DNA of 31,562 nucleotides from a bacterium (GTDB taxonomy: Bacteria > UBP15 > UBA6099 > JAJRTR01). The position numbers and the translations under genes were made by a program. A model generated the notes under the pieces. The model worked only from the letters and a program-made list of their open reading frames with translations, ran no database searches and was not told where the DNA came from. Every line of letters begins with the position of its first letter. Position 1 is the stretch's first letter. Below, piece after piece: positions 1 to 18,653 of this stretch. Location of the stretch: NCBI GenBank assembly GCA_024278215.1, contig JAJRTR010000021.1:1-31562 (forward strand), read 5' to 3'.

Positions 1-999
1 CGCATCCATAAGAACATTTCCCAGAACCGTTGTATATGCGGCGTAATGAAACAGGATGTTAGCAGGCTGCGTATACACGTCTGAAAATAGAAACCCCGGA
101 TTCTTACTACAGTTGTATTTGAATCCTGCGCCTTCCGGCACGAACAGTGGCGCGAAACCGCAATCCGAATAGGGACGACCGAATTCGATATAATCATTCA
201 GAGGATAAAAACCCAGCATAACGACATCCGGTCGAATCAGGTTGAAGAACCTGTCGAGCATGACTTTCGCGAAATCCGTCGAGGTGCTTCCCACAGCCAG
301 TACGTACTGTGGCACCCCCACAGTCTCCTCGAGCAGATGCGGAAATCTTTTTTCCCATGGAACCTGTGCCGCTTCGGTCATCGAGTCACCCAGCCACACT
401 ATCCGTCTTTCACCGTCCGGCTTTTCCGGAGATGGTATAACGTGCCGGTCTGCCAGTGAGAATGTCTCCATCATAATTATATTGTTCTTATTAAGGCGGC
501 TGAGTTCCTGTGTGTCCGGTATCGGCTTGTGCAGCATAATATCTACGTCATCATAATTGACGCGTTCATATTTCCTGCCGATCCTGTTCTCGCTCAGTTT
601 GTCGATGTAGAAGCCTCGCAGAAGCAACTCGCATACGAACAGCGATAAGGAAGTGAAGACAAGAACAGCAATTATACCGAAATATAATCTGCGCGAATCA
701 ACCTTACTTGTCACCCACAAAAACAGCAGGGACGCCGCAACAAACAGATCGAGCAGCAGCATATCCTCGAACCAGAACGGCGCGTAAGCGCCGACCTTCA
801 TAACGCTGACAACAGTCAGATACGCGCATAGCCCCAGAGTCGCGAGAACCGATAACAGCGCATATACAGCGGAGCGCCTTTTTCCCTGTTGCGATTCACG
901 GATAAAATCGCCGCAAACGTATACCAGAAATATCGGGATAATAACTGCGTAATAGCTGTTCATGTCTTTGTTATAATAGTTTCTCCGGGAGAATTCCAT
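1..999 (-). CDS. Membrane-anchored SGNH/GDSL-hydrolase family protein (C-terminus beyond window)
   Basis: An uninterrupted minus-strand reading frame runs off the left edge, so only the first 333 codons are present. The first ~130 residues carry about four hydrophobic segments (near residues 14-30, 43-64, 80-98 and 105-127). A soluble SGNH-type domain follows: block I is VWLGDSMTEA, whose Ser is the expected nucleophile, and block III is GFYPLNDY. The C-terminal Asp-x-x-His block must lie outside the window. Family members are esterases or acyltransferases acting on glycans or lipids; no substrate is visible here. Two in-frame ATGs are possible, at 999 and 963, and neither has a convincing ribosome binding site; an in-frame stop at 1021-1023 limits the frame. 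The gene lies about 50 bp behind the nitrogenase-like beta subunit on the same strand and may be cotranscribed with it. Confidence 0.8.
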   Translation of the reverse strand, partial: MEFSRRNYYNKDMNSYYAVIIPIFLVYVCGDFIRESQQGKRRSAVYALLSVLATLGLCAYLTVVSVMKVGAYAPFWFEDMLLLDLFVAASLLFLWVTSKVDSRRLYFGIIAVLVFTSLSLFVCELLLRGFYIDKLSENRIGRKYERVNYDDVDIMLHKPIPDTQELSRLNKNNIIMMETFSLADRHVIPSPEKPDGERRIVWLGDSMTEAAQVPWEKRFPHLLEETVGVPQYVLAVGSTSTDFAKVMLDRFFNLIRPDVVMLGFYPLNDYIEFGRPYSDCGFAPLFVPEGAGFKYNCSKNPGFLFSDVYTQPANILFHYAAYTTVLGNVLMDA

Positions 1000-1018
1000 T
1001 CCGGCAATGATGGTATCA

Positions 1019-1030
1019 CACTATATAGTG
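1019..1030. promoter_or_regulatory. 12-bp perfect palindrome upstream of the SGNH gene
   Basis: CACTATATAGTG is a perfect 12-base palindrome in the 50-bp gap between the nitrogenase-like beta-subunit stop and the SGNH start. It could be an operator or part of a promoter. It overlaps the in-frame stop that precedes the SGNH gene. No function can be shown from sequence alone. Confidence 0.3.
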
Positions 1031-1049
1031 CAGCCGGCGGCGGAGCGAT

Positions 1050-2387
1050 TCAGTGTCTGAAAGACGCGGCGTTCATGATGCGCTGGGTCAGGGCGACAGT
1101 TCCTTCGTAGCCGAGGCAGGGGGCCGGGTAGATCATGTGTTTGTAGTATGAGGGAGAGCCGAGTTCCACGATGTTCAGTTCGAATATCAGTTGTTTTTTC
1201 ATTTCGATAGTCGGAGATATTATAATGGCGGGCAGGCGTTTATTTTTGTCTTCGTGAAATTCCGGCAGGCCGGCTACTTTATCCCAGGAAGGATTTTCGA
1301 GGATATTGAGGTCGTCGGGGCTGTTTTCTGCGGTAAGGCGAGAGAGCGCGCGGAGGAACTCGTCCGCGCCGCCGAGTGAGGAATCGAGAAGAACGATATT
1401 TTTCAGGTCCATGCCAAGCTCGAGGGCAAGTGCGGCGCAGCCCGCGGCAAGTGGTGTCGGCTGAATTATACATGCTGTGCTTTCACCCAGAAATCTCTTT
1501 GCAATGTCCAGCAGAATCCTGACCCGCGCTGTTTCGTTTTTTATGAAAGTCCCGGTTTTGTCCGGGTCGGCGCCTGCGGCGGCGGCGATGTTATTCAGCC
1601 ATTTTGTCGTTCCGGCTATGCCCATCGGGAGGTCTCCGGCGAGTGCAGGTCTGCCGCTTGTTTCCTCCAGTTCTTTTCTGTATTTGTTGAAATAAGGAAG
1701 AACAGAGTTGACGGCGCCTTTATGCGCGGACAGCAGTTGGCCCGCTCTCTGCCCCGATAAGAACCACGCGCCGGGGTGCAGGCCTATCGCTTCGACAAGC
1801 CTCTTAAGTTCCCTGATATTTGCTCCGTGGTCCATTTCATATCTTTCGAACGGGTATCCGAAGATGTTGACGGTTCCCGGTTCCGGCTCGAGTGTCCAGT
1901 CTACGAATCCCGCCAGCGCCCTGGTGAAATCCGCTAAACCATCGTACATGTCGCCCTCGTAGCCGGAAGTGGGCACAAAGACAAGGGGACAGCCAACTTT
2001 CGGCTGCAACAGTTCGACGCTTTCGCGCATATCAAAGCCGGTCAGTTCTATCACACTGGAAGTTGCAAGGGCAATAAGGCCGGGGCGGCGTCTTTCGTAG
2101 TTTGTCAGCACCGTGTCTTCTATCATCGCATGGCTGTCGGTCAGGATGTCCACACCCGAAACTTCCGTCCAGCAGATCTGGCTGAAACTTTCATGAAAAA
2201 GGTCGGAGATGTGTGTGCTGCCTTTCATTTTGCAGCCTGTGCCTTTGTGGAGTACAAGTATCGAATCCGGTATCGAGTGGCTCGCCATGAAAACGCCGAA
2301 GTAGCGGGCATGGTTCATCATGGGAATTCGGAATTCACGCAGCCTGTCTTCGGTTCTTTCGCTCAAGTTTCCCTCCGGGGTATTCAT
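1050..2387 (-). CDS. Nitrogenase component 1-like beta subunit (NifK/BchB-like)
   Basis: This 445-residue protein belongs to the nitrogenase component-1 oxidoreductase family. Hallmarks are LHKGTGCKMKGSTHISDL near residues 46-63, a SxGVDILTDSH segment, LIALATSSVIELTGFDM where NifK has TTCMAEVIGDD, and a C-terminal PCLGYEGTVAL segment. Of the three NifK P-cluster cysteines only the middle one is kept (C52). The first is replaced by Ala at the matching spacing (A27) and the third by Ser. C52 aligns with the position of the BchB ligand Asp36. The start overlaps the upstream alpha-subunit stop in an ATGA junction (2384-2387), so translation is probably coupled and the two proteins probably form an alpha2beta2 complex served by the NifH-like protein encoded divergently. 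At 445 residues it is shorter than NifK (about 520). Substrate unknown. Confidence 0.88.
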   Translation of the reverse strand: MNTPEGNLSERTEDRLREFRIPMMNHARYFGVFMASHSIPDSILVLHKGTGCKMKGSTHISDLFHESFSQICWTEVSGVDILTDSHAMIEDTVLTNYERRRPGLIALATSSVIELTGFDMRESVELLQPKVGCPLVFVPTSGYEGDMYDGLADFTRALAGFVDWTLEPEPGTVNIFGYPFERYEMDHGANIRELKRLVEAIGLHPGAWFLSGQRAGQLLSAHKGAVNSVLPYFNKYRKELEETSGRPALAGDLPMGIAGTTKWLNNIAAAAGADPDKTGTFIKNETARVRILLDIAKRFLGESTACIIQPTPLAAGCAALALELGMDLKNIVLLDSSLGGADEFLRALSRLTAENSPDDLNILENPSWDKVAGLPEFHEDKNKRLPAIIISPTIEMKKQLIFELNIVELGSPSYYKHMIYPAPCLGYEGTVALTQRIMNAASFRH

Positions 2388-3628
2388 TCGCGCCGGTCGG
2401 CAAGTGCGTTTTCTATCAGTGCAAGGTTCCGCAGGCAGCCCCTGTAACCTGTCAGAAGGCTGCCCAGCGCTATCATGGGGACTTTTGCCGGACTCACCAT
2501 TTCAGCCATTGCACCGACACAGTACACCAGATCGTATGCCTTTTTTCTCAGGGCGGGGGTCATCGAGACATTGTCCACGAAGATGTCGAAATCGGCGGTG
2601 ATTTTCATTTCATCCAGGAGTCTCGATATGAAAAGAACCCGGTCCGCCTCCGGGCTGCCCTGTATGAGAAGTGTGACATCGAACCCGAGTTCCCTGAATG
2701 AATTGACCTCACAAAGCCCGTTCTTTGCTGTTATATAAGGAACATAGTTTCTCTCGGTGCCGATATTATAAGCAAGCTTCAGGCCCTTCCAGTCCGCAGC
2801 TTTTGCGGAAAGCGCGTCAGCCGCTTCTTTTCTGTTTTCGTCGATTACCGCCTTCATTTCAGAGCGTCGTTTGAAGTGTCCGGCGATCTTCATAAAAAAA
2901 CTGTCTGTCCCGGCCACACCCGTTGGGATCGGAACTTCCATAAACGGTGTACCGACTTCCTTTTTTATTTTTTCCATAAGATTCGAGTACAGGTCTTTAT
3001 CAATGACGACATTCAACGCGCCCGCGGGCAGTCGACACCAGTCGGACAATGGCGATTTTTCGTTAAGGTGAACATTCACGCCGATTCCCGCCCCGGCAAG
3101 AATTTCTTCTATCTCTCCATCGTCCCACGCGAGCCCGATCAGGTTGACCGTCAGCGGTTGCGGATCGGGTTTGTTTTGTGCGGCACAGTACATCAGCTCA
3201 GCGTGCCTGTCGATAACCCGCTTCTGCGAAGTGTCGTCCAGTCCGGATGACGTCACTGCAATTACCGGGGTAGAGAGACTGCCTGCCGCGGCGGCTGCAA
3301 CGCTCTCGATGTCGTCGCCTATCAACTCCGAAAGGCAGCTTCCGAACACATAGATAGCAACCGGATTTTCCACTTCCGCCACAAGTTTGATACACTCGGA
3401 CAGCCGGTCGGTCGTTGTGCCGGCCATCACATCGCTCTCGCGCAGGTTTGTACAGAAGAAACGGCCGGGAAGCTGCCCGGGGATGCCTCTGGGCAATACA
3501 TTGGCACAGTCGGGATAGGAGTGAATTATCACGGCGAAGTCGCCGCCGGTTCTCATAAGACAGATGCAGAGCCCTTCGAGAAGACAGGCGCTCTGGGATA
3601 GTTTCGCGTGGTCGTATTTTCTTCTCAT
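2384..3628 (-). CDS. Nitrogenase component 1-like alpha subunit (NifD/BchN-like)
   Basis: This 414-residue component-1 paralog precedes the beta subunit. Three cysteines match the NifD cluster ligands: C15 and C41 (HSYPDC) are 26 residues apart, exactly as C62 and C88 in Azotobacter NifD, and C98 in YVFGSCLSELIGDDIE corresponds to C154. Other family signatures are FFCTNLRESDVMAGTTTDRL around residues 57-76, the GVAGTDSF segment, and the C-terminal GYRGCLRN. I do not find the FeMo-cofactor ligands (the Cys275/His442 equivalents), and the protein is shorter than NifD (about 490), like BchN, BchY or CfbD. It should therefore carry a [4Fe-4S] relay cluster and reduce a non-N2 substrate. It is the first gene of the leftward operon. 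No good Shine-Dalgarno precedes the ATG, and the upstream TATATT is very close to it. Confidence 0.88.
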   Translation of the reverse strand: MRRKYDHAKLSQSACLLEGLCICLMRTGGDFAVIIHSYPDCANVLPRGIPGQLPGRFFCTNLRESDVMAGTTTDRLSECIKLVAEVENPVAIYVFGSCLSELIGDDIESVAAAAAGSLSTPVIAVTSSGLDDTSQKRVIDRHAELMYCAAQNKPDPQPLTVNLIGLAWDDGEIEEILAGAGIGVNVHLNEKSPLSDWCRLPAGALNVVIDKDLYSNLMEKIKKEVGTPFMEVPIPTGVAGTDSFFMKIAGHFKRRSEMKAVIDENRKEAADALSAKAADWKGLKLAYNIGTERNYVPYITAKNGLCEVNSFRELGFDVTLLIQGSPEADRVLFISRLLDEMKITADFDIFVDNVSMTPALRKKAYDLVYCVGAMAEMVSPAKVPMIALGSLLTGYRGCLRNLALIENALADRRE

Positions 3629-3858
3629 AAATAATATAAAGACAGGTCGGATTGCGGATGAGAGACGCCCCTGATATAAGCAGCGCCGCGAAGAGCCGGT
3701 CTCTCTCGATTCATATCCGGGCGACGCATGGGAATTCTAACCCCGTCGCACCCGGCGGTCAAGGACGGGCATGTCTCCGCTGAGTGCGCCGGTAGCCGGC
3801 TTATCCCGATTCCGGCCCGCGCTGGTGAAATATGCGGGCTGGCCGGCGACAGCCTGGT
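3629..3858. other. Divergent intergenic region between the nitrogenase-like operons
   Basis: This is the gene-free stretch between the leftward alpha-subunit gene and the rightward iron-protein promoter. It holds a copy of the REP-like palindrome (3815-3840) and GC-rich sequence. A short reading frame (83 codons, minus strand) can be drawn through it but has no recognisable domain. I could not assign a promoter for the leftward operon with confidence. Confidence 0.5.
3815..3840. repeat. REP-like palindrome, copy 1
   Basis: This is one of six copies of a ~26-bp imperfect palindrome with a GCCCGC...GCGGGC-type stem around a TTTCACC/GGTGAAA core. The others are at 10902, 13381, 16672, 21063 and 30143. 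It is the only copy not just 3' of a gene and lies in the divergent promoter region. Confidence 0.65.
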
Positions 3859-3887
3859 TTGATAGACTCCGCTCACGCGGTTATAAT
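3859..3887 (+). promoter_or_regulatory. Sigma70-type promoter of the iron-protein/radical SAM operon
   Basis: TTGATA (3859-3864) and TATAAT (3882-3887) are separated by exactly 17 bp. Transcription would start near 3894, giving a leader of about 50 nt before the NifH-like ATG at 3945. Confidence 0.7.
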
Positions 3888-3944
3888 TGATTAACAGTCA
3901 TACCAATGCCGCAAATTGAAAGAACATAAGAAAGTCGATTGCTA

Positions 3945-4775
3945 ATGAGAAAGATAGCGTTTTACGGCAAAGGCGGCGCCGGCAAATCCACTATAGTATC
4001 GAACCTGAGCGTGGTCGCCGCCGAAGCGGGAAAAAAAGTTTTGCAGGTAGGCTGTGATCCGAAACACGACTCGACCCGCAGTCTGCTCGGCGGGGCGCGC
4101 CCGGCGACGGCTGTCGAACTGTTCCAGAAAAAACGTCCCGAAAAGATATGCGCCGACGAGCTTGTATTCAAGGGTGTGCTGGGCATAGATTGCATCGAGG
4201 TGGGCGGCCCCGAGCCGGGCGCGGGCTGCGCGGGTCTCGGTATTATCAAAACCATGGAACTCATGAAATCGCTCGGGCTGATGAGCCGGAATTACGATTT
4301 CATCTTTTTCGATGTTCTGGGCGATGTCGTATGCGGGGGGTTTGCCACACCCATGCGTCTTAAGTTCGCCGACGAAGTCTATGTCGTCATTTCCGGGGAA
4401 ATGATGTCTCTTTACGCGGCAAACAACATCTGTCGCGGTATTCTAAGATATGCGAAGATGGGCAAAGTGCGGCTCGGAGGTTTCATCGGCAACCAGAGAA
4501 GTCCCGGCGCGCCGACGGAAATACTCACGGCTTTCGCCGACAGGATCGGTGCCCCTCTGGTATTCCTTATGCCCTGGAGCAGCGACCTGCCGGAAGCCGA
4601 GCGAGCGAGGAAAACCGCCGTCGAGTTCGCTCCCGATTCGGAAACTGCGCGCAGATTCCGCCGGCTTGCAGAAAAAATCGATAACAACACCGGTCAATGT
4701 ATCCCGGAACCGATGACCGACGAGGAATTCGAATCGTTTTTCGCACGAAACTCGCAAGCCGGAAGCAACTGCTGA
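3945..4775 (+). CDS. NifH/BchL-like nitrogenase iron protein paralog
   Basis: This 276-residue ATPase should form a homodimer that binds one [4Fe-4S] cluster and passes electrons to the component-1-like proteins encoded divergently. The P-loop GKGGAGKST is at residues 8-16. Switch I is CDPKHDST (37-44); the His is typical of BchL/ChlL, where NifH has Ala. The cluster cysteines are C95 in GAGCAGLG and C130 in DVLGDVVCGGFA, 35 residues apart as in NifH C97/C132. The NifH arginine that is ADP-ribosylated (CAGRG) is Leu here, so DraT-type control is unlikely. The chosen ATG gives the normal MRKIAFYGKGG start; a TTG two codons upstream (3939) also fits. Spacing to the radical SAM gene is 39 bp, in one operon. 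Length matches the family. Confidence 0.93.
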   Translation: MRKIAFYGKGGAGKSTIVSNLSVVAAEAGKKVLQVGCDPKHDSTRSLLGGARPATAVELFQKKRPEKICADELVFKGVLGIDCIEVGGPEPGAGCAGLGIIKTMELMKSLGLMSRNYDFIFFDVLGDVVCGGFATPMRLKFADEVYVVISGEMMSLYAANNICRGILRYAKMGKVRLGGFIGNQRSPGAPTEILTAFADRIGAPLVFLMPWSSDLPEAERARKTAVEFAPDSETARRFRRLAEKIDNNTGQCIPEPMTDEEFESFFARNSQAGSNC

Positions 4776-4814
4776 ACAGACTTTGCAAGTGGCGCAAACC
4801 TTAACGAGGACTCC

Positions 4815-6617
4815 ATGAGTGATATAACGCGAAACGCGCCGAGAGGTCCGATGGCTCTGATCCGGCTGGGATATGCCTGCAACAACAACTGCATCTTCTG
4901 CCATAGCAGCGACCACCGCGGCGCGGGCCACGAACAGGATATCGACCGGATAAAGAGAAAGATACGGCTGGCCTCGGAACACGGAGCCGGCACAGTTGTT
5001 TTTTCGGGTGGTGAACCGACTATAAGAAAAGATATCCTTGATATATTTGAATACACGCATGAGCTGAACCTGGGTGTGGGTCTCATAACAAACGGACGGA
5101 TGTTCTGCTACCCGGATTTTACCCGCCGCGTCGCAGACATCGGACTTGAATATATACTTGTATCAATCCATGGTCCGGATGCGAAAACGCACAACATGCA
5201 CACCGGCGTCGATTCTTTCCGGCAGTCGCTTGGCGGCCTCGCGGCCATATCCGGTTCGGCTGCCCGCGTGGTTGTGAACACGGTTCTGACACGCCGCAAT
5301 GCCGCCGGTCTCGCACAGACCGCCCGGTTGCTGGAAAGATTCGCGCCCATCCATTTCAAGATTTCGCTGCCCGAGCCCAGGGGGGCGGTTCTCAATCACT
5401 TCGACATTGTTCTGTCTACTCATGCCGCGGCCGGGGCGGTCGAGAACTTCCTGATGGAATATGAGCCCGGAAACGGGCTGACTGCGGGTATCGACGGCCT
5501 GACGCCATGCCTGCTGGCCGATTATTCATCACTGAACGACGACTTTTTCACTCACGGGTTCTACCTCGTGAGCGAACCCGGCGAGGACGACTTCTTCCCG
5601 CCTTCGCACGGGCTCAGGGGATTCGACCGCAACTGCATGTTCTGCTCGATGCGTCACCTGTGCCCCGGTATCTATGTCAAGTACTTCGAAATGTTTCCCG
5701 GCATCTCTTTGACACCGCTCAAGCGGGAAGTATCGAACGCCGTGCGCTTCGACATCGAAGAAGTGAGGCAGGGAAGAGATATGGGGAATTGCGAATGGGA
5801 GACCCTCCGCTGTGCCGACCCGGCGCGCCGTCTGGCGGTCAGAAAAAAAGACCGGCTCGATATATTCGTCACACGTGAGATCCAGACGGCAACCCCGGAA
5901 CTGATGACACTGAAATACGATATCGAGCAGGTTTATAAAACAAAGAAAGAAGTGGAGATAAAGCGGGGCTTTCCGGCCCATCTGCGGAAATTGCAACTGA
6001 CGGAAAAGTGCCGGGCGTGCGGCAGGTTAAGACTCTGTCCGGGCGTATACACAATAGCGCGGAAACAGCCTTTCGCCACGTTGAAAAAGCGGGTATATGA
6101 GCTGCTGGACACACTCGCGGGCCGGGTCTTCGAGGTCGGCTGCGGCTCCGAACCATACGCCGCGACCATGAAAAAGTCGATAAGTTCGGGCCGCATTTCT
6201 TACTATCTCGGGATAGACCCGGCACTGCCGCTGGAAATAAAAACAGAAATGCAGGGCCGTTATGTTCTGAAGAAAGGACTGTTCGAGGAATTTCGCGCGG
6301 AAGGTGAAAAGTTCGATTCTGTAATCATGTTCCGCTCATACAATCACCTTGCGGACCTCAGGCGTGCCGGCTCCGTCCTGTCTGGAATAACAACTGCGGG
6401 ATCGAAAATCATCATTATAGAAGATTGCAAGTGTATCGAATTGAAAAAGGAAGAACCCGTTGCCGGCGGGCAACCCGCCCACAGGTTCGAACACATGCGC
6501 AACCATACGGCACAGAACGCCGCGGAATTCCTGCGGCGGACCGGGTTCGAGCCGGAGGTCCTCTGGGAACCGGACATGAGCAGCGCCGGTTGCTGGGCTG
6601 TTGCGGCGCAGAGATAA
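4815..6617 (+). CDS. Radical SAM protein with duplicated cysteine motif and C-terminal methyltransferase-like domain
   Basis: This 600-residue protein starts with a radical SAM core: C22-x3-C26-x2-C29 (CNNNCIFC) binds the SAM-cleaving [4Fe-4S] cluster, and FSGGEPT is the SAM-contacting motif. Two similar downstream motifs, CMFCSMRHLCPGIY near residue 272 and CRACGRLRLCPGVY near 398, share a C-x2-C-x5-CPG-hydrophobic-Y pattern and suggest auxiliary cluster segments of the twitch/SPASM kind. From about residue 435 the sequence resembles a class I methyltransferase (VFEVGCGSEPY as motif I, then GIDP). A GAGGA site 6 nt before the ATG supports the start. It follows the NifH-like gene by 39 bp, which suggests that it makes, modifies or matures the substrate or cofactor of the nitrogenase-like enzyme. 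The actual reaction is unknown. Confidence 0.88.
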   Translation: MSDITRNAPRGPMALIRLGYACNNNCIFCHSSDHRGAGHEQDIDRIKRKIRLASEHGAGTVVFSGGEPTIRKDILDIFEYTHELNLGVGLITNGRMFCYPDFTRRVADIGLEYILVSIHGPDAKTHNMHTGVDSFRQSLGGLAAISGSAARVVVNTVLTRRNAAGLAQTARLLERFAPIHFKISLPEPRGAVLNHFDIVLSTHAAAGAVENFLMEYEPGNGLTAGIDGLTPCLLADYSSLNDDFFTHGFYLVSEPGEDDFFPPSHGLRGFDRNCMFCSMRHLCPGIYVKYFEMFPGISLTPLKREVSNAVRFDIEEVRQGRDMGNCEWETLRCADPARRLAVRKKDRLDIFVTREIQTATPELMTLKYDIEQVYKTKKEVEIKRGFPAHLRKLQLTEKCRACGRLRLCPGVYTIARKQPFATLKKRVYELLDTLAGRVFEVGCGSEPYAATMKKSISSGRISYYLGIDPALPLEIKTEMQGRYVLKKGLFEEFRAEGEKFDSVIMFRSYNHLADLRRAGSVLSGITTAGSKIIIIEDCKCIELKKEEPVAGGQPAHRFEHMRNHTAQNAAEFLRRTGFEPEVLWEPDMSSAGCWAVAAQR

Positions 6618-6664
6618 GAATAGTGAAGCATCTCGTTCCCAAAAACATACAAGTAATCGTCCTT

Positions 6665-8752
6665 ATGTCTATACAAAAACGCACACCTGGCAAAACCTCG
6701 CTCCGCTCGTGGCCCGGCATCCTGTGGTTTGTTGTCGTCATGCTGATCGCCTCTCCATGCCTCGGGTATCCCAGGATGGGACCGGCTATGGACCGTGACA
6801 TTGCAAGGCTTGTCTATACGAACAGTACCTCTTATCCGCTTCCCGAGGGCTGGGAGATACAGAGCCGGAGCTTTACCGATACGGACATTACGGTAACTCT
6901 CAAATCGGAGACCGGCGACGAAGCCGTTGTCCGGCTTTCTTATCCCTGGCTTCCGGTTCGCGGGGAAATCGTGGGGAGAACACTCAGTTTCAGGCTGGAA
7001 ATACTGACCGCTGAAGGCGCGGAAGCCCGAACAGCCGCCCTGGATTTCTGCAACAGAATAAGAAAAAACGACAGGGTATATTTTTTCGCATCGAAAAATA
7101 TGCTCAAGCGTGAACTCTGGACTCAATATCTGTTCAGGCGATTCATCTTTACTCCCATTATTGATTACAAACTATTATTTGTGATATGCCCGCTCCTGGG
7201 ATTATATATGATGAAATCTTCCATAGTAAGAAAATATTTCCTGCCGGAGGGAGCTTACGGTCGTCTCGCGCTTCTGGCGGTTTTCGTTCTTGGATTGACC
7301 CTGAGGCTGTACGTTTCGCCTTCGGTGCCGATACACTGCAACTCACACGGAATCGGTGAAGTCAGATTGTATCTCTCACTCATGCAGGACGAAACGCTGG
7401 AGACAGCATACGGGAGAGCTTTTCCATCTATAATGAGATGGATTCTGGGATTTATCGGGCCGGTGGAAAAGAACATTTTTCTGATAAATAAAATTCTGGG
7501 CGCGCTCGCCATTCCGGCAATATTTTTGTTTGCGAAAGGGCTTACGGGGTCCGACGCGGCTGGGATTTTTTCCGCGTTTTTCCTCAGCTTGTCCCCGGCG
7601 CAGGTATGGATGGCAGGCACTGAATCGCAAATTCCGATGTACATGCTCATCGGCCTCACCGGTCTCGGGCTACTGTGCCTGTCGGCTCGAACGAGGAGTA
7701 TCTCCATTCTGTGGCTCGCGGCTATCATGATCTCTTATGCGTCTTCTTTAAGGATACTGACGGTGCTGATAGTTCCCGTCGCAGTCGCCACAGGGCTATA
7801 CCTGGGGGTTCATAAAAAAAAGGATATTCATGACACATACTTGAAACATGTCATAGTGTGCCTGGCGGTGGCTGCGATATGGATGACCTTTCATTATCTC
7901 TCTATTTCGGCAATGACGGGCAAGGGATGGTCGGAATCGAATCCGCTGAAGGTTCTGTGTATTTTCTTCTTTCACGATGGACTGTCTTTTAAAAATACTA
8001 TTCTCGACCCGACTCTGACACCTTTTATCGTACCATTCGCTGCCGCCGCCGCTTATGTTTATGCCTGGAAAAGGGACAGGCGATTCGCGCTTTTTGCTAC
8101 GGTTGTTTTCCTGATCGCGGTTCCGATGACGTTTTCGGTGCTGGACTGCCGGACATCGGCCGTAAGATATCAGACTCAGGCACACTGGGTATATTTCATA
8201 CTTGCGGCATCTCTTTTCACCAGTATTGCGCCCGAATATCTTCGCCGTAAGCGGAAAACCCTGGCAGTGCTCGTGATTATTCTTACTGTTGTGGGTTCCG
8301 TTCCGGGACTCGCCATGCTCTACAGAGGCGACGAAGAAATGAATGAATACCGGTTCATGCGGGAAACCGCGCATAAGATTCCGGCGGGTACGGTGATAAG
8401 GCTACCTGTCGAAAACGCGGGCAACGGCAAATTAATAACCGATTTCCCCGATTATATCAATAGCCATATTGTCGTGAAAGACAGGGAGAAAGCCCCTGAC
8501 GGATACAGAGAACTCATCTACGACGGCCTGGACTGCTATAGATTCACAACAGTAGAAGAAAGGGCAACCGACTTTCTCCCTGACGGCAAAAACAAACAGT
8601 GTGTAGAGATATGTGACGGGCGACTCGTACCGCTTTATGAGAAAAAACTCGATGCCGGAGTTCCGTTCATCGGATACCATAAGCGATTCTATAAATTAAG
8701 TACTAAAAAACCAGTAGTCGGTTTCTATGAGTGTCTTCCTGATGGAAAATAA
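6665..8752 (+). CDS. GT-C/GT39-like multipass membrane glycosyltransferase, first of a tandem pair
   Basis: The 695-residue product begins with a signal peptide or anchor (WPGILWFVVVMLIASPCLG), followed by a ~140-residue extracytoplasmic domain (GWEIQSRSFTDTDITV...). Many membrane segments follow, then a C-terminal soluble domain with four cysteines, the first in GLDCYRF and the last in VGFYEC. The membrane part has the look of lipid-phosphate-sugar-dependent GT-C enzymes (ArnT/PMT-like). The loop after the first core helix reads HCNSHGIGEVR, with His, Asn and Glu where Asp-Glu is usual, so activity is not certain. An ATG at 6665 fits the signal peptide; a GTG at 6623, five bases after the radical SAM stop, is an alternative. 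The frame is open further upstream, but that part overlaps the radical SAM gene and is not protein-like. It overlaps its paralog downstream. Confidence 0.75.
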   Translation: MSIQKRTPGKTSLRSWPGILWFVVVMLIASPCLGYPRMGPAMDRDIARLVYTNSTSYPLPEGWEIQSRSFTDTDITVTLKSETGDEAVVRLSYPWLPVRGEIVGRTLSFRLEILTAEGAEARTAALDFCNRIRKNDRVYFFASKNMLKRELWTQYLFRRFIFTPIIDYKLLFVICPLLGLYMMKSSIVRKYFLPEGAYGRLALLAVFVLGLTLRLYVSPSVPIHCNSHGIGEVRLYLSLMQDETLETAYGRAFPSIMRWILGFIGPVEKNIFLINKILGALAIPAIFLFAKGLTGSDAAGIFSAFFLSLSPAQVWMAGTESQIPMYMLIGLTGLGLLCLSARTRSISILWLAAIMISYASSLRILTVLIVPVAVATGLYLGVHKKKDIHDTYLKHVIVCLAVAAIWMTFHYLSISAMTGKGWSESNPLKVLCIFFFHDGLSFKNTILDPTLTPFIVPFAAAAAYVYAWKRDRRFALFATVVFLIAVPMTFSVLDCRTSAVRYQTQAHWVYFILAASLFTSIAPEYLRRKRKTLAVLVIILTVVGSVPGLAMLYRGDEEMNEYRFMRETAHKIPAGTVIRLPVENAGNGKLITDFPDYINSHIVVKDREKAPDGYRELIYDGLDCYRFTTVEERATDFLPDGKNKQCVEICDGRLVPLYEKKLDAGVPFIGYHKRFYKLSTKKPVVGFYECLPDGK

Positions 8753-10877
8753 GCCCGCCGACCGGCACACCCGACAGGTGTGGTACGAGAAGCGAAGCGC
8801 ATTATCCTGCAAACACGCGGTTGCCGTTCTCTTCGCGTTCCTTTTTCTTTTTACCTGTTCTCATCGTGTATTTTCACTTCCGATAATGGGCCCGGAAACC
8901 GGGCCGCGAATAGAGAGCCTCATAAGCCGAAGCGCCGATCGTTTCCCGCTTCCCGACGGTTGGGACATCGCCGGGTATCATTACACTGATTTCGACGTTT
9001 TTGTCCGCCTCGAAAAACCGACCGGCGCACAAGCTGTTTTCCGTCTTGCCTGCACTTCGCTTCCGTCGAAAAACACACTTGTCGGCGAATCCCGCAATTT
9101 CAGGATGGAACTCTCCGACTTCTCCGGCGTGAGCGCGCCAGAAACGCTCCGGGTCGGCGACTCGCTTCTGGAAAGAATAAAACATAATGATCAGCCATTG
9201 TTCTTCGATCAGCCCGACATGCAGAACAGAGAAGGCATATATGAATTCCTGTTTAGGAAATATTTGTTTATACCTTTGATTTTTGCAGGTTTTGCAGCCG
9301 GTGTTTTGCTCCTGCTTGTCGGCTTCCCGCTTATCCGGAAGCACCTGCTGCCTGGAAATGTAGTATGCGCCGTGATCCTGGCGTTCCTGCTGATTGCAGG
9401 CGCGGCGTTAAGGTTTGGCGTCGGCCCCGGAGCACCTGTCCACAACAACGGGCATGGAGTCCGCGAGCTGAGATCGATCCTTTACACAGAGTCGCCCGAG
9501 CAGAAAGAGATGCTGTACGGCAGCGTATATACAACCCTGATGAAGAGTCTGGCCGGTGTCGCGGGGAACACCGACAGTGCGGTCTTTAACATCAACAGGA
9601 TTTTGGGAACACTCGCCGTTCTTGGAATGTTCATGTTGGCGCGTGCACTGCTCTTTTCCGAAACCGCCGCACTCACAGCCGCTGCCGCATTCAGTTTCAA
9701 CCCCGGTCTGGTGTGGCTTTCCGGCTCGGAGTCCCCGGCGTCCATGTATCTGTTTTTTGCCCTGTCGGGATTCGCTTTTACGGTCGTTTCCGCGAAAACC
9801 CGAAGTTGGCGTCTACTGTGGCTGTCGTTGATTTTTATATGTGCGGCTTCCACTATGAGGTTGCTTACGATGGCTGCCGCTCCGGTCGCTATACTGCTGT
9901 TCGTCTACTCTTCATATCAACCTGCAAGTCCCGGCAACGATGCCGGAGACAAGAACAGTTTCAAACAACACGCATTACTTTGTTTCGGGATATTGATTGT
10001 CTGGTTGTGCTTCCATTGTCTCACTCTTGACCCCGACAATGCGGCAAACGGGATCGCGCGCATTTCCGCGTCAATGTACCTGCACAACATGCGAATATAC
10101 AATATACTGTTCGACCCGACATTGACACCTGCCTGCCTGCCGTTTTTCGCGGCGACCGGATTCCTTCTGTTGCTGTGGAAGCGCCCGGTGCTTGCCGCTT
10201 TGCTGGCGGTTGTTTTCGTTCTCATAGTGCCGGTGAGTTTCACTACCATGGCCGACCGCACCGACTTCCTGCGCTATCAACCCCAGACACACTGGCTATA
10301 CTTCCTCCTTACGGCTTCGCTCGTGGATTTCATCGCGAAAAGTTCTTTGTCACGTCGAATCGCGGATGTCGTCGCCCTGTCTGTCCCGGCGGCAGTTGTG
10401 ATGTTTTCAATAGCCGGCCTCACATTCCTTGCTGCCGGAAACGAGGAAATAGCGGAGTATCGTTTCATCAGCAACATGTCCGCATCGTTGCCCCCCGGGA
10501 CCGGTATCGCACTTCCCGTGCGCCCGGATGCCGATGAACGAATGATCTCCGATTTTCCGGATTATCAGGGAAGATTCAAGTTGAATAAAACAGGAATCAT
10601 CGGGAGAAAAACCGACGAACTGATATACACAGGGCTCGACTGTTACCGCTACAACGACATGAAAGAAATGAGTCGGAAAGCAGAGGCCGGAGGCATGAGA
10701 CCGGAATGCGCGTCGATCTGCGGCGGGCACCCGATTCCTGTCAGAGAGAAAAAACTGAAAGTCGAAATTCCCGACAGTGTTCTGCACAGGAGATATTTCA
10801 TGCTTGGAACCGACCGGCCAGTCATCGGATTCTACAAATGTCCGGAACACGTGGACAATAAACGCGAGGGTAATTGA
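8727..10877 (+). CDS. GT-C/GT39-like multipass membrane glycosyltransferase, second of a tandem pair
   Basis: This 716-residue protein is a divergent paralog of the gene before it, sharing the same order of parts. It has an N-terminal signal segment (AVAVLFAFLFLFTC), an extracytoplasmic domain (FPLPDGWDIAGYHYTDFDV), a multipass region with HNNGHGVREL after the first core helix, and a C-terminal domain with four matching cysteines (GLDCYRY, PECASIC, IGFYKC). The conserved DPTLTP loop (ILFDPTLTP here, ILDPTLTP in the partner) also recurs. The pair probably arose by tandem duplication and may act as a heterodimer or on related acceptors. The chosen ATG overlaps the preceding gene by 26 bp; an ATG at 8742 would overlap by 11. 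It is the last gene of the operon headed by the NifH-like gene. Confidence 0.75.
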   Translation: MSVFLMENKPADRHTRQVWYEKRSALSCKHAVAVLFAFLFLFTCSHRVFSLPIMGPETGPRIESLISRSADRFPLPDGWDIAGYHYTDFDVFVRLEKPTGAQAVFRLACTSLPSKNTLVGESRNFRMELSDFSGVSAPETLRVGDSLLERIKHNDQPLFFDQPDMQNREGIYEFLFRKYLFIPLIFAGFAAGVLLLLVGFPLIRKHLLPGNVVCAVILAFLLIAGAALRFGVGPGAPVHNNGHGVRELRSILYTESPEQKEMLYGSVYTTLMKSLAGVAGNTDSAVFNINRILGTLAVLGMFMLARALLFSETAALTAAAAFSFNPGLVWLSGSESPASMYLFFALSGFAFTVVSAKTRSWRLLWLSLIFICAASTMRLLTMAAAPVAILLFVYSSYQPASPGNDAGDKNSFKQHALLCFGILIVWLCFHCLTLDPDNAANGIARISASMYLHNMRIYNILFDPTLTPACLPFFAATGFLLLLWKRPVLAALLAVVFVLIVPVSFTTMADRTDFLRYQPQTHWLYFLLTASLVDFIAKSSLSRRIADVVALSVPAAVVMFSIAGLTFLAAGNEEIAEYRFISNMSASLPPGTGIALPVRPDADERMISDFPDYQGRFKLNKTGIIGRKTDELIYTGLDCYRYNDMKEMSRKAEAGGMRPECASICGGHPIPVREKKLKVEIPDSVLHRRYFMLGTDRPVIGFYKCPEHVDNKREGN

Positions 10878-16757: not shown

Positions 16758-18653
16758 TCAACCGTGAAAAATCGGTCTCTTGCTGACAAGTCGCGGCATG
16801 GGAATCCGCCGGAACGGCATCCCCTTGGACTCCGTGTGTATGCGATCGACCAGTTCGTCGAATGTCATTTTCTGTTGTTTGCCCGTCTCGCGTATGCGCA
16901 CCATCAGTTCGCCCGAATCAATCTCCTTCTGCCCGATTACAAGCACGTAAGGTATCCACTCGCGCTCGGAGTTGCGTATCTTTTTACTTACTGTGTCGGG
17001 CCTGTCGTCGAGGTCGCAGCGTATATTCGCCCTGTTGAACCTGTCGCATAGTCCGGTGGCGTATTCGAGGAATTCGTCTTTCACGGGGCAGAGCCGCACC
17101 TGCGTTGGTGCAAGCCATACCGGGAACATTGCCGGTTTTCCCTGGTTTATATCTATTGCGATATTCTCGAGGATCGTGCATAGAGTGCGCTCGATACTGC
17201 CGAAACTCGACGCGTGCAGAATCACCGGCACAGGGTGCTTTTTTCCGTCGTCGTCAACATAGCCGATGTCGAAGCGCTCGCCGTCTTTAACATCCCACTG
17301 CACCGTGGACACCTGTATATTGCTTTCGTCCTCGGTGATGCTCTGGAATTCGTTTTTGATCGCGTAATAATGCGTCATCTCCGGCATAAGTTTGAAGAAA
17401 GACGGAACCTTCATTGTTTTACATATACCGAGCAGCCACTCCTTGTTGTCCTCGTAGAAGTCGATCGTGCCCTCCCAGCCCAGCACCCAGCGACCCCGCG
17501 CGATGATGTCGTCCATCAGGCGCTGGAAAAGATAGCAGAGATCTTCGAATTCTTTTTTCGCCTCATCTGTTGTCGCGCAGGCCGCGTGCATGTCCGTCAT
17601 CATGAAGTTGCGCACACGCTTGAGACCGCTCACCTCGCCCTCCTGCTCGTTGCGGAAGCACGTGGCCTCCTCGTAGACCTTCAGGGGCGACTGCTTATGC
17701 GAGAAGCGGACCTTCTGCATGAATGGAAAGCCGAGCGGGTCGGAAGCGTAGCGCAGATAGCAGACGCCGCGCCCGCCGTCGACTTTGTAGTCGCGCTCGT
17801 GGAACTCGCCCATCAGCTCGCCTACTATATTATTGTCGCCTCGAATAATCAGCGGGTTCTTCATCTCCATCGCGCCCCATTCATGTGCCAGCATCCCGGC
17901 ATATTCCAGGATAAGTTTCTGGATGAAGAGCCCCTTCGGATACCATTTATAATGTCCCTTTTCCGACGCGTCGCAGTAGTCGACAAGCTCGAGACGCTGC
18001 ATGAATTCGATATGTTTAGGCGCGCGCGTCGTGTCCACGCCTTTGCCGAATTCGTTCGAAACAAATCGTTTGAGAAGTTTGTACACCGGCTTTTTTTTCT
18101 TGAAAATCGCGTTCTTTTTGAATTTGTCCGGCGTTACTTCATATTCGTTGCCTTCGATGTCCACGCAGATAAATTTTGTAAACTTGTCGCCCCTGACCTC
18201 ATCTTCGGACTTCTCCGCCTTTGCTTCTTCCTCATCAATAGAAAAGAAACCGCTCCATTCGGACAGAGGATGTCCCTTTGCGGAAACTTCGAATGCCTTG
18301 TACCAGCCGAACGGCGCACGCACCACCTCCAGTTTTTCCGCAAGCATCTTCTTAGCGTTTTTCAGCACAGAAAGCGCGGTGCGCGGCGACGAAGGGTCCT
18401 GTGTCAGGTGCACATAAGGATAAACAATAACCTTTTTAACCTTTAGTGTCTCCGCTCTCTTGAGTGTGTCGTCAATAAGCTTCCGCGTTACGACAAGAGG
18501 CGCGGCCTCGTCTGCTTTTTCAACGCCCACATAAACTACAATACAATCTTCTTCGAGACTGAATTCCGTCTGCGAAATCGATTCCGCCCCTTTCATGGCT
18601 TTTTCTGTCGCCTTGAATCGAAAATAATTTGTGTGTATACCAAGTGTCCTCAT
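16758..18653 (-). CDS. thrS: Threonine--tRNA ligase, archaeal type
   Basis: This 631-residue class II synthetase charges tRNA-Thr. Its N-terminus (MRTLGIHTNYFRFKATEKAM, domain to about 145) matches the archaeal ThrRS editing domain with D-aminoacyl-tRNA deacylase-like fold, not the TGS and N2 domains of bacterial ThrRS. The catalytic core has motif 2 in CFRNEQEGEVSGLKRVRNFM, zinc-site candidates including Cys and His in that region, and motif 3 near ILHASSFGSIERTL. The anticodon-binding domain starts at FPVWLAPTQVRLCPV. GGGGAG before the ATG and a TATAAT promoter upstream support the start. The surroundings are clearly bacterial, so this is most simply an old transfer from archaea, or an archaeal-type ThrRS typical of this lineage. 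No bacterial-type thrS is visible in the window. Confidence 0.93.
   Translation of the reverse strand: MRTLGIHTNYFRFKATEKAMKGAESISQTEFSLEEDCIVVYVGVEKADEAAPLVVTRKLIDDTLKRAETLKVKKVIVYPYVHLTQDPSSPRTALSVLKNAKKMLAEKLEVVRAPFGWYKAFEVSAKGHPLSEWSGFFSIDEEEAKAEKSEDEVRGDKFTKFICVDIEGNEYEVTPDKFKKNAIFKKKKPVYKLLKRFVSNEFGKGVDTTRAPKHIEFMQRLELVDYCDASEKGHYKWYPKGLFIQKLILEYAGMLAHEWGAMEMKNPLIIRGDNNIVGELMGEFHERDYKVDGGRGVCYLRYASDPLGFPFMQKVRFSHKQSPLKVYEEATCFRNEQEGEVSGLKRVRNFMMTDMHAACATTDEAKKEFEDLCYLFQRLMDDIIARGRWVLGWEGTIDFYEDNKEWLLGICKTMKVPSFFKLMPEMTHYYAIKNEFQSITEDESNIQVSTVQWDVKDGERFDIGYVDDDGKKHPVPVILHASSFGSIERTLCTILENIAIDINQGKPAMFPVWLAPTQVRLCPVKDEFLEYATGLCDRFNRANIRCDLDDRPDTVSKKIRNSEREWIPYVLVIGQKEIDSGELMVRIRETGKQQKMTFDELVDRIHTESKGMPFRRIPMPRLVSKRPIFHG

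Follow-up and report, generated by a model that had tools for sequence, protein, structure and literature searches.

What does a nitrogenase-like enzyme reduce when its genes are accompanied by a gene for a radical S-adenosylmethionine (SAM) protein and by genes for membrane proteins? This question is raised by a bacterial DNA stretch of 31,562 nucleotides (the window; contig JAJRTR010000021.1 of assembly GCA_024278215.1), which is the entire contig C196 of a metagenome-assembled genome (MAG; G000, 4.55 Mb, 95% complete, 1.26% contamination). Here, the genes for a NifD-like (P0003, D) and a NifK-like subunit (P0002, K) run leftward, while those for a NifH-like iron protein (P0004, H), the radical SAM protein P0005 and the membrane proteins P0006 and P0007 run rightward from an intergenic region of 316 bases. 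A first-pass annotation, made from the letters of the window, had already described the divergent orientation of D and K versus iron protein and radical SAM gene, and Pfam searches as well as open reading frames (ORFs) agree with it; ORF calling and translation found all genes it had listed to be intact and located where it had placed them. Its observations are confirmed, its interpretation was borne out in part only. The best explanation as a whole, to which we assign a probability of about 0.62, is that the locus encodes an ATP-driven two-component reductase of a separate, radical SAM-linked nitrogenase-like family.

Affiliation and cluster ligands of the subunits

P0002, P0003 and P0004 all score below the NCBIfam cut-offs of the Nif, Bch and Cfb models. 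The iron protein P0004 scores 335 bits with the NifH, 313 bits with the CfbC and just 215 bits with the BchL model (cut-offs of 394, 402 and 345 bits, respectively), so its original description as BchL-like was wrong. P0003 attains 97, 50 and 30 bits with NifE, NifD and CfbD (cut-offs 505, 654 and 268), and P0002 46 and 22 bits with AnfK and NifK (854 and 427). No match to P0003 above 31% identity was present in the 386 genomes sampled.

A mixture-model tree has one starred clade of D subunits (22 rows) and another of K subunits (23 rows), and Nif, Bch, Mar and Nfl proteins lie outside both. A 166-row FastTree agrees with this and resolves mirrored D and K subclades, one holding the window pair and the other a second pair, P0009/P0010, encoded on contig C30. 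Approximately unbiased (AU) tests reject a grouping of P0003 with BchN/BchY (p = 0.002) or with MarD plus NifD/E (p = 0.0007) and of P0002 with BchB/BchZ (p = 1e-4). The trees which the first-pass annotation had proposed for the nitrogenase-like proteins hence put D and K outside Bch and Mar/Nif at AU p ≤ 0.002, P0004 alone being ambiguous, and together with the NCBIfam cut-offs they uphold its view that the reductase belongs to none of Nif, Bch, Cfb and Mar. P0004 was unplaced in a first H tree, but when H proteins of the same D/K subclade were added, it joined these with moderate support (87/81). With P0004 placed beside H proteins from these loci, H, D and K point to one subclade. Judged from these alignments and trees, the window system, whose genes are intact, belongs to a deep nitrogenase-like clade that lies apart from the tested families; Isr was set apart by its published description, the trees having held no Isr sequence. 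Among the publications available, a literature search found none describing the D/K clade, which does not prove that the clade is undescribed.

Alignment of P0003 to NifD shows that the Cys residues at positions 62, 88 and 154 are kept (C14, C41 and C98), while the position of the FeMo-co ligand Cys275, equivalent to MarD Cys270, is occupied by Asp; Cys is missing at this position in nearly all relatives as well. In P0002, the sole kept cluster Cys is the K95 equivalent (C52). This distribution of 3 + 1 ligands matches COR and is close to DPOR, which has three Cys plus Asp. Moreover, NifB (TIGR01290) has no match anywhere in genome G000, so that the lack of nifB, initially remarked for the window, holds genome-wide. 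Because of the 3 + 1 Cys, the Asp in place of the FeMo-co Cys and the genome without NifB, the best inference is a [4Fe-4S] centre at which an organic substrate would be reduced directly. Fixation of N2 is ruled out by the lack of NifB and of the cofactor Cys and by the scores below cut-off. Membership in Mar is unsupported (Asp at the Cys position, no NifB-like protein, AU p = 0.0007), as is membership in Isr, the Cys distribution being opposite to the published description. No match to HemB (PF00490) was detected in the 95%-complete G000, although a missing contig is possible and the relatives G001–G003 do have HemB, which argues against a home-made tetrapyrrole. Independently of the enzyme, the contrast with these three relatives of the same order may indicate a loss of tetrapyrrole synthesis in the lineage.

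Radical SAM partners, the ND domain and a second system

Coupling of D/K to radical SAM proteins is common but not universal. Single proteins of 889 (L171), 897 (L188) and 996 aa (L281) possess an N-terminal radical SAM part and a C-terminal D domain joined by a domain of about 100 aa, termed ND (architecture radical SAM-ND-D); L171 and L188 branch as sister to the D subclade that holds the window protein, and L281 belongs to the other subclade. P0005, which bears a CxxxCxxC motif at residue 22 and two CxxCx5C modules at 274 and 399, has a full-length homologue in Myxococcota (L203:26-1855; 26% identity over 603 columns, E = 5e-53) sharing the radical SAM part, both CxxCx5C modules and the methyltransferase, with a degenerate CxxxCxxC motif. 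The same locus holds a D/K pair and B12-radical SAM genes. Double radical SAM proteins are encoded after K in many loci, and among 79 systems the radical SAM motif was found in 16 of 133 neighbouring versus 5 of 285 distant genes (Fisher p = 2.4e-5, related loci not being fully independent). Fusions, the P0005 homologue in a D/K locus and neighbour enrichment thus substantiate the early proposal of the radical SAM protein as a real partner. Adjacency alone is not new to nitrogenase-like systems, as MarHDK and IsrHDK also adjoin radical SAM genes (PMC12552129, PMC11423573). The locus of the L281 fusion (G599:C131:1-20000) holds three nitrogenase-like sets in 16 kb, one of them including the fusion, and several separate radical SAM genes.

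Many D subunits as well as double radical SAM proteins begin with the ND domain, B12-radical SAM proteins end with it, and it also occurs alone. A hidden Markov model trained solely on the ND part of D subunits recovers the copies in radical SAM proteins (E = 1e-8 to 1e-6), and this sharing of ND is further evidence for the coupling. The domain was modelled confidently (predicted local distance difference test, pLDDT, of 93); Foldseek gave no match in the PDB at E < 0.001, and with VIA the best Z of 4.7 was obtained for the fatty-acid-binding protein STK_08120, a range that may mean a shared arrangement only. As modelled, ND is therefore a domain without clear known fold relative. Right after its first membrane segment, P0006 has a soluble domain of predicted a-b-b-b-b-b-a topology. 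The order of predicted strands and helices in this domain of P0006/P0007 equals that of ND, and a weak hhalign profile match (P = 0.0015) was obtained, so kinship of the two is a lead only; a structure predicted from the two-row alignment of P0006 and P0007 was poor (mean pLDDT 39).

Contig C30 (13 kb, L011) encodes the second system, consisting of a NifH-D domain fusion (P0009, 879 aa), the K-like P0010 and the double radical SAM protein P0011. A class II aldolase, a GT2 glycosyltransferase, an SGNH-like protein and a tandem nucleotidyltransferase are encoded there as well. H-D fusions, found here also in L258 and L286, resemble the fused NifH-NifD Nfl proteins of Methanosarcina (L213), Treponema and Coriobacteriia; the latter, however, fall into another clade in the D and K trees, and the fused Nfl proteins searched gave no match to the ND domain. 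No sequence overlap joining C196 and C30 was found. The open frame C30:3-455 has no Pfam match, and its end resembles an SGNH C-terminus in weak alignments. When the N-terminal 333 residues of the window's truncated SGNH-like protein P0001 and this frame are compared with the 418-aa SGNH protein of a relative (L029), a gap of about 15 codons is left between them. The lost C-terminus of P0001 is probably this frame, and from the complementary SGNH halves it can be deduced that C30 probably adjoins the window. Such adjacency is supported by locus L189 from a Myxococcales genome, as there both kinds of system neighbour each other, with 2.6 kb between a window-type D/K pair and an H-D-K-double radical SAM operon of the C30 type. 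Between these two sets, a tandem CoA-transferase family III protein of 820 aa is encoded (L189:8427-10889), which could hint at a CoA-thioester substrate.

Gene content of the window and distribution of the clade

Features at the left end of the window, with coordinates in nucleotides of the forward strand.
Feature	Position	Strand	Description
P0001	1..999	-	SGNH/GDSL-like membrane protein, 333 aa, C-terminus cut by contig end; four hydrophobic segments precede SGNH part
P0002	1050..2387	-	NifK-like (beta-type) catalytic subunit, 445 aa; PF00148, 1e-42
P0003	2384..3628	-	NifD/NifE-like (alpha-type) catalytic subunit, 414 aa; PF00148, 3e-38
Intergenic region	3629..3944		316 bases separating two divergent transcripts
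P0004	3945..4775	+	NifH-like ATP-dependent iron protein; first ATG at 3945; PF00142, 1e-97
P0005	4815..6617	+	Radical SAM protein with C-terminal methyltransferase, 600 aa; Radical_SAM, 4e-21
P0006	6665..8752	+	Multi-pass membrane protein, GT-C-like; start uncertain (ATG at 6665 taken)
P0007	8727..10877	+	Multi-pass membrane protein, GT-C-like; paralogue of P0006, 35% identity

The D and K genes share a 4-base overlap. The window (including 3629..3944) and the loci L011, L203, L189 and L174 gave no Rfam match, and riboswitch control was accordingly dropped. P0006 and P0007 each show about 10 hydrophobic segments. Their assignment as GT-C glycosyltransferases is plausible, but the scores stay under the Pfam cut-offs, with PMT at E = 0.0011 (19.1 bits, gathering score 22.7) and PMT_2 at E = 0.0026 for P0007 and neither of them matched by P0006. 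Likewise, the SGNH hydrolase claimed for P0001 is reflected in a weak SGNH-like match that misses the Pfam gathering score (20.7 versus 32.9 bits), the C-terminus being absent at the contig end. Close relatives of P0006/P0007 and P0001 were not found beside related D/K pairs, and radical SAM genes adjoin a minority of the D/K pairs, so conservation of the seven genes as a set, which the first-pass annotation had suggested surveying, was not seen. Further along the window (16758-18653), this bacterial genome encodes a threonyl-tRNA synthetase whose editing domain is of the archaea type (PF08915, 2e-39).

Six other genomes represent the phylum of the window, and all of them lack PF00148, which points to horizontal transfer or to loss elsewhere. 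From the sequences sampled, the clade is otherwise mostly found in Myxococcota and scattered over several phyla; at least 46 of 377 Myxococcota genomes have PF00148 above cut-off. A scan of named genomes with P0004 led to genomes rich in component 1, namely G387, G393, G389 and G392 with 30, 9, 8 and 8 matches, respectively. The first of these, the Lake Tanganyika Deltaproteobacteria MAG K_DeepCast_100m_m1_326 (VGRB01), harbours about 15 D/K pairs (30 PF00148 matches; L171–L187), mostly single among unrelated genes, and about seven NifH-like proteins. On contigs of G391 and G392 (L122 and L127), two complete HDK sets lie back to back; a TonB-dependent receptor, a weak match to ECF transporters and a 721-aa protein to which Pfam gave no match accompany them, an ensemble that looks like substrate or cofactor uptake. 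Another nitrogenase-like group, in which two NifH genes stand in tandem and the D subunit bears Cys at the Cys275 position, was encountered in Chloroflexi (NC_groundwater_653; L027 and L124), and in L027 a radical SAM-like gene lies upstream of it.

Proposed function and its alternatives

By homology, a P0004 dimer would accept electrons from a low-potential donor and, hydrolysing ATP, deliver them to a P0003/P0002 heterotetramer, where a subunit-bridging [4Fe-4S] centre of the DPOR/COR type may directly reduce an organic molecule. P0005 might act on the same substrate or activate the enzyme, and the C30 set, comprising the H-D fusion P0009, P0010 and the double radical SAM protein P0011, might catalyze a related step. 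In the weakest step of this scheme, for which neighbouring genes are the only guide, the product would be a lipid- or sugar-type surface building block handled at the membrane by P0006, P0007 and the SGNH protein. Put generally, a specific organic reductase with a radical SAM partner appears somewhat probable. A surface lipid or glycan precursor as its substrate or product is a tentative assignment, leaning towards the doubtful, which is taken from neighbour genes only: window- and C30-type loci adjoin GT-C-like proteins (L174, L204 and L176), NeuB, a thiamine pyrophosphate enzyme, a nucleotidyltransferase with a CDP-alcohol phosphatidyltransferase and a UDP-GlcNAc 2-epimerase. It is held at this level because other loci adjoin housekeeping, polyketide synthase or CoA-transferase III genes.

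Several points weigh against the reductase as proposed. P0004 on its own is weakly placed, as AU tests do not reject its grouping with BchL/X (0.43), CfbC (0.19) or NifH (0.08). No adjacent radical SAM gene is present in 65 of the 79 D/K systems (14 have one), and in the window's own subclade such proteins are confined to the window, as a separate gene, and to L171/L188, fused and on the sister branch. The glycan and lipid neighbours were taken as annotated, without a background rate, other D/K pairs lie among housekeeping genes, and the family is so far known from sequence alone.

Among the alternatives, a sulfur-compound reductase cleaving C-S bonds for sulfur scavenging in the manner of Mar or Isr and matured by the radical SAM protein appears highly improbable. 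It draws on the three-part H/D/K composition with an adjacent radical SAM gene common to MarHDK plus MarB (PMC12552129), IsrHDK plus IsrB (PMC11423573) and the window, and on 9d9u/9fmg being the best solved-structure match of both P0003 (8e-20 to the MarD chain) and P0002, 9FMG being the entry given for methylthio-alkane reductase (PMC12552129). Mar, however, contains a P-cluster as well as an [Fe8S9C]-cluster, with Cys270/His429 as ligands, and the NifB-like MarB takes part in making its [Fe8S9C] cofactor (PMC12552129), whereas P0003 has Asp at that Cys, P0005 is not NifB-like, no NifB was found and the trees set the window apart in separate clades. Isr shares with the window a total of about four cluster Cys and the lack of FeMo-co ligands, but is described with one Cys in IsrD and three in IsrK (PMC11423573), opposite to three in D and one in K here, and with a BciD-like IsrB in place of a radical SAM-methyltransferase. 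In addition, no sulfonate or ABC transport genes are among the annotated neighbours. Only slightly less improbable is a tetrapyrrole reductase similar to DPOR, COR or CfbCD that acts on a porphyrinoid or F430-like molecule, perhaps a salvaged one. As far as can be read from the ligands, the window enzyme resembles DPOR (BchLNB) and COR (BchXYZ) in its working parts: FeMo-co is lacking, the alpha-type subunit contributes three Cys and the beta-type subunit one ligand, and an organic substrate is presumably reduced directly. Furthermore, the TonB receptor and weak ECF-type match near the paired HDK sets of Myxococcota (L122/L127) could serve to import a cofactor. Yet it is a member of neither, with Bch and Cfb cut-offs unreached, Bch placement of D and K rejected, HemB not matched in G000 and radical SAM proteins as partners. 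CfbCD, whose CfbC model gives P0004 its second-highest score, differs by its single catalytic subunit CfbD from the D/K pair.

A reductase for natural products or carrier-bound acyl groups, in which each D/K pair would have its own intermediate (acyl-CoA, acyl-ACP, sugar or peptide) and ND would recognize the substrate or its carrier, is unlikely but deserves more weight. The surplus of D/K pairs over NifH-like proteins in G387 suggests one donor for many specific reductases; at L283:1515-6078, an ND-bearing D/K pair and a radical SAM gene come after genes for a carrier protein and for a polyketide-synthase-like protein with a phosphopantetheinyl-transferase domain; the tandem CoA-transferase III of L189 stands between two nitrogenase-like sets; and ND is present on B12-radical SAM proteins (L203 and L258). 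On the other hand, the window has no such genes beside it, each association was met once or twice, and the fold of ND has no clear relative. That the nitrogenase-like genes came into the MAG as contamination or as an island transferred only recently, unlinked to the membrane proteins, is improbable. While the six other genomes from the phylum lack PF00148 and P0006/P0007 do not occur beside other family members, two contigs of similar guanine plus cytosine content (51.6% and 52.3%) each carry members, MAG contamination is low, and the genes are intact and diverged (P0004 has at most 53% identity to anything found).

Returning to the radical SAM-linked reductase, a wider version can be formulated, for which the odds are somewhat short of even. 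Within a large separate family, D would work as one machine with radical SAM proteins, either fused or tied to them by a shared recognition domain, and in one genome a few iron proteins would supply as many as about 15 D/K pairs, each specific for its substrate, amounting to a reductive radical chemistry new to nitrogenases and used here for a surface lipid or glycan. To our knowledge, the nitrogenase-like enzymes with a known job have all revealed unusual chemistry, namely N2 fixation and the reactions in chlorophyll, F430, methylthio-alkane and isethionate metabolism. A clade standing apart from the comparable nitrogenase-type families and greatly multiplied in some Myxococcota would represent a class of anaerobic reductions without assigned substrate, for which the fusions of D with radical SAM and the shared ND domain are direct experimental handles. 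If the surface-lipid assignment is true, ATP-driven low-potential reduction would enter envelope biosynthesis.

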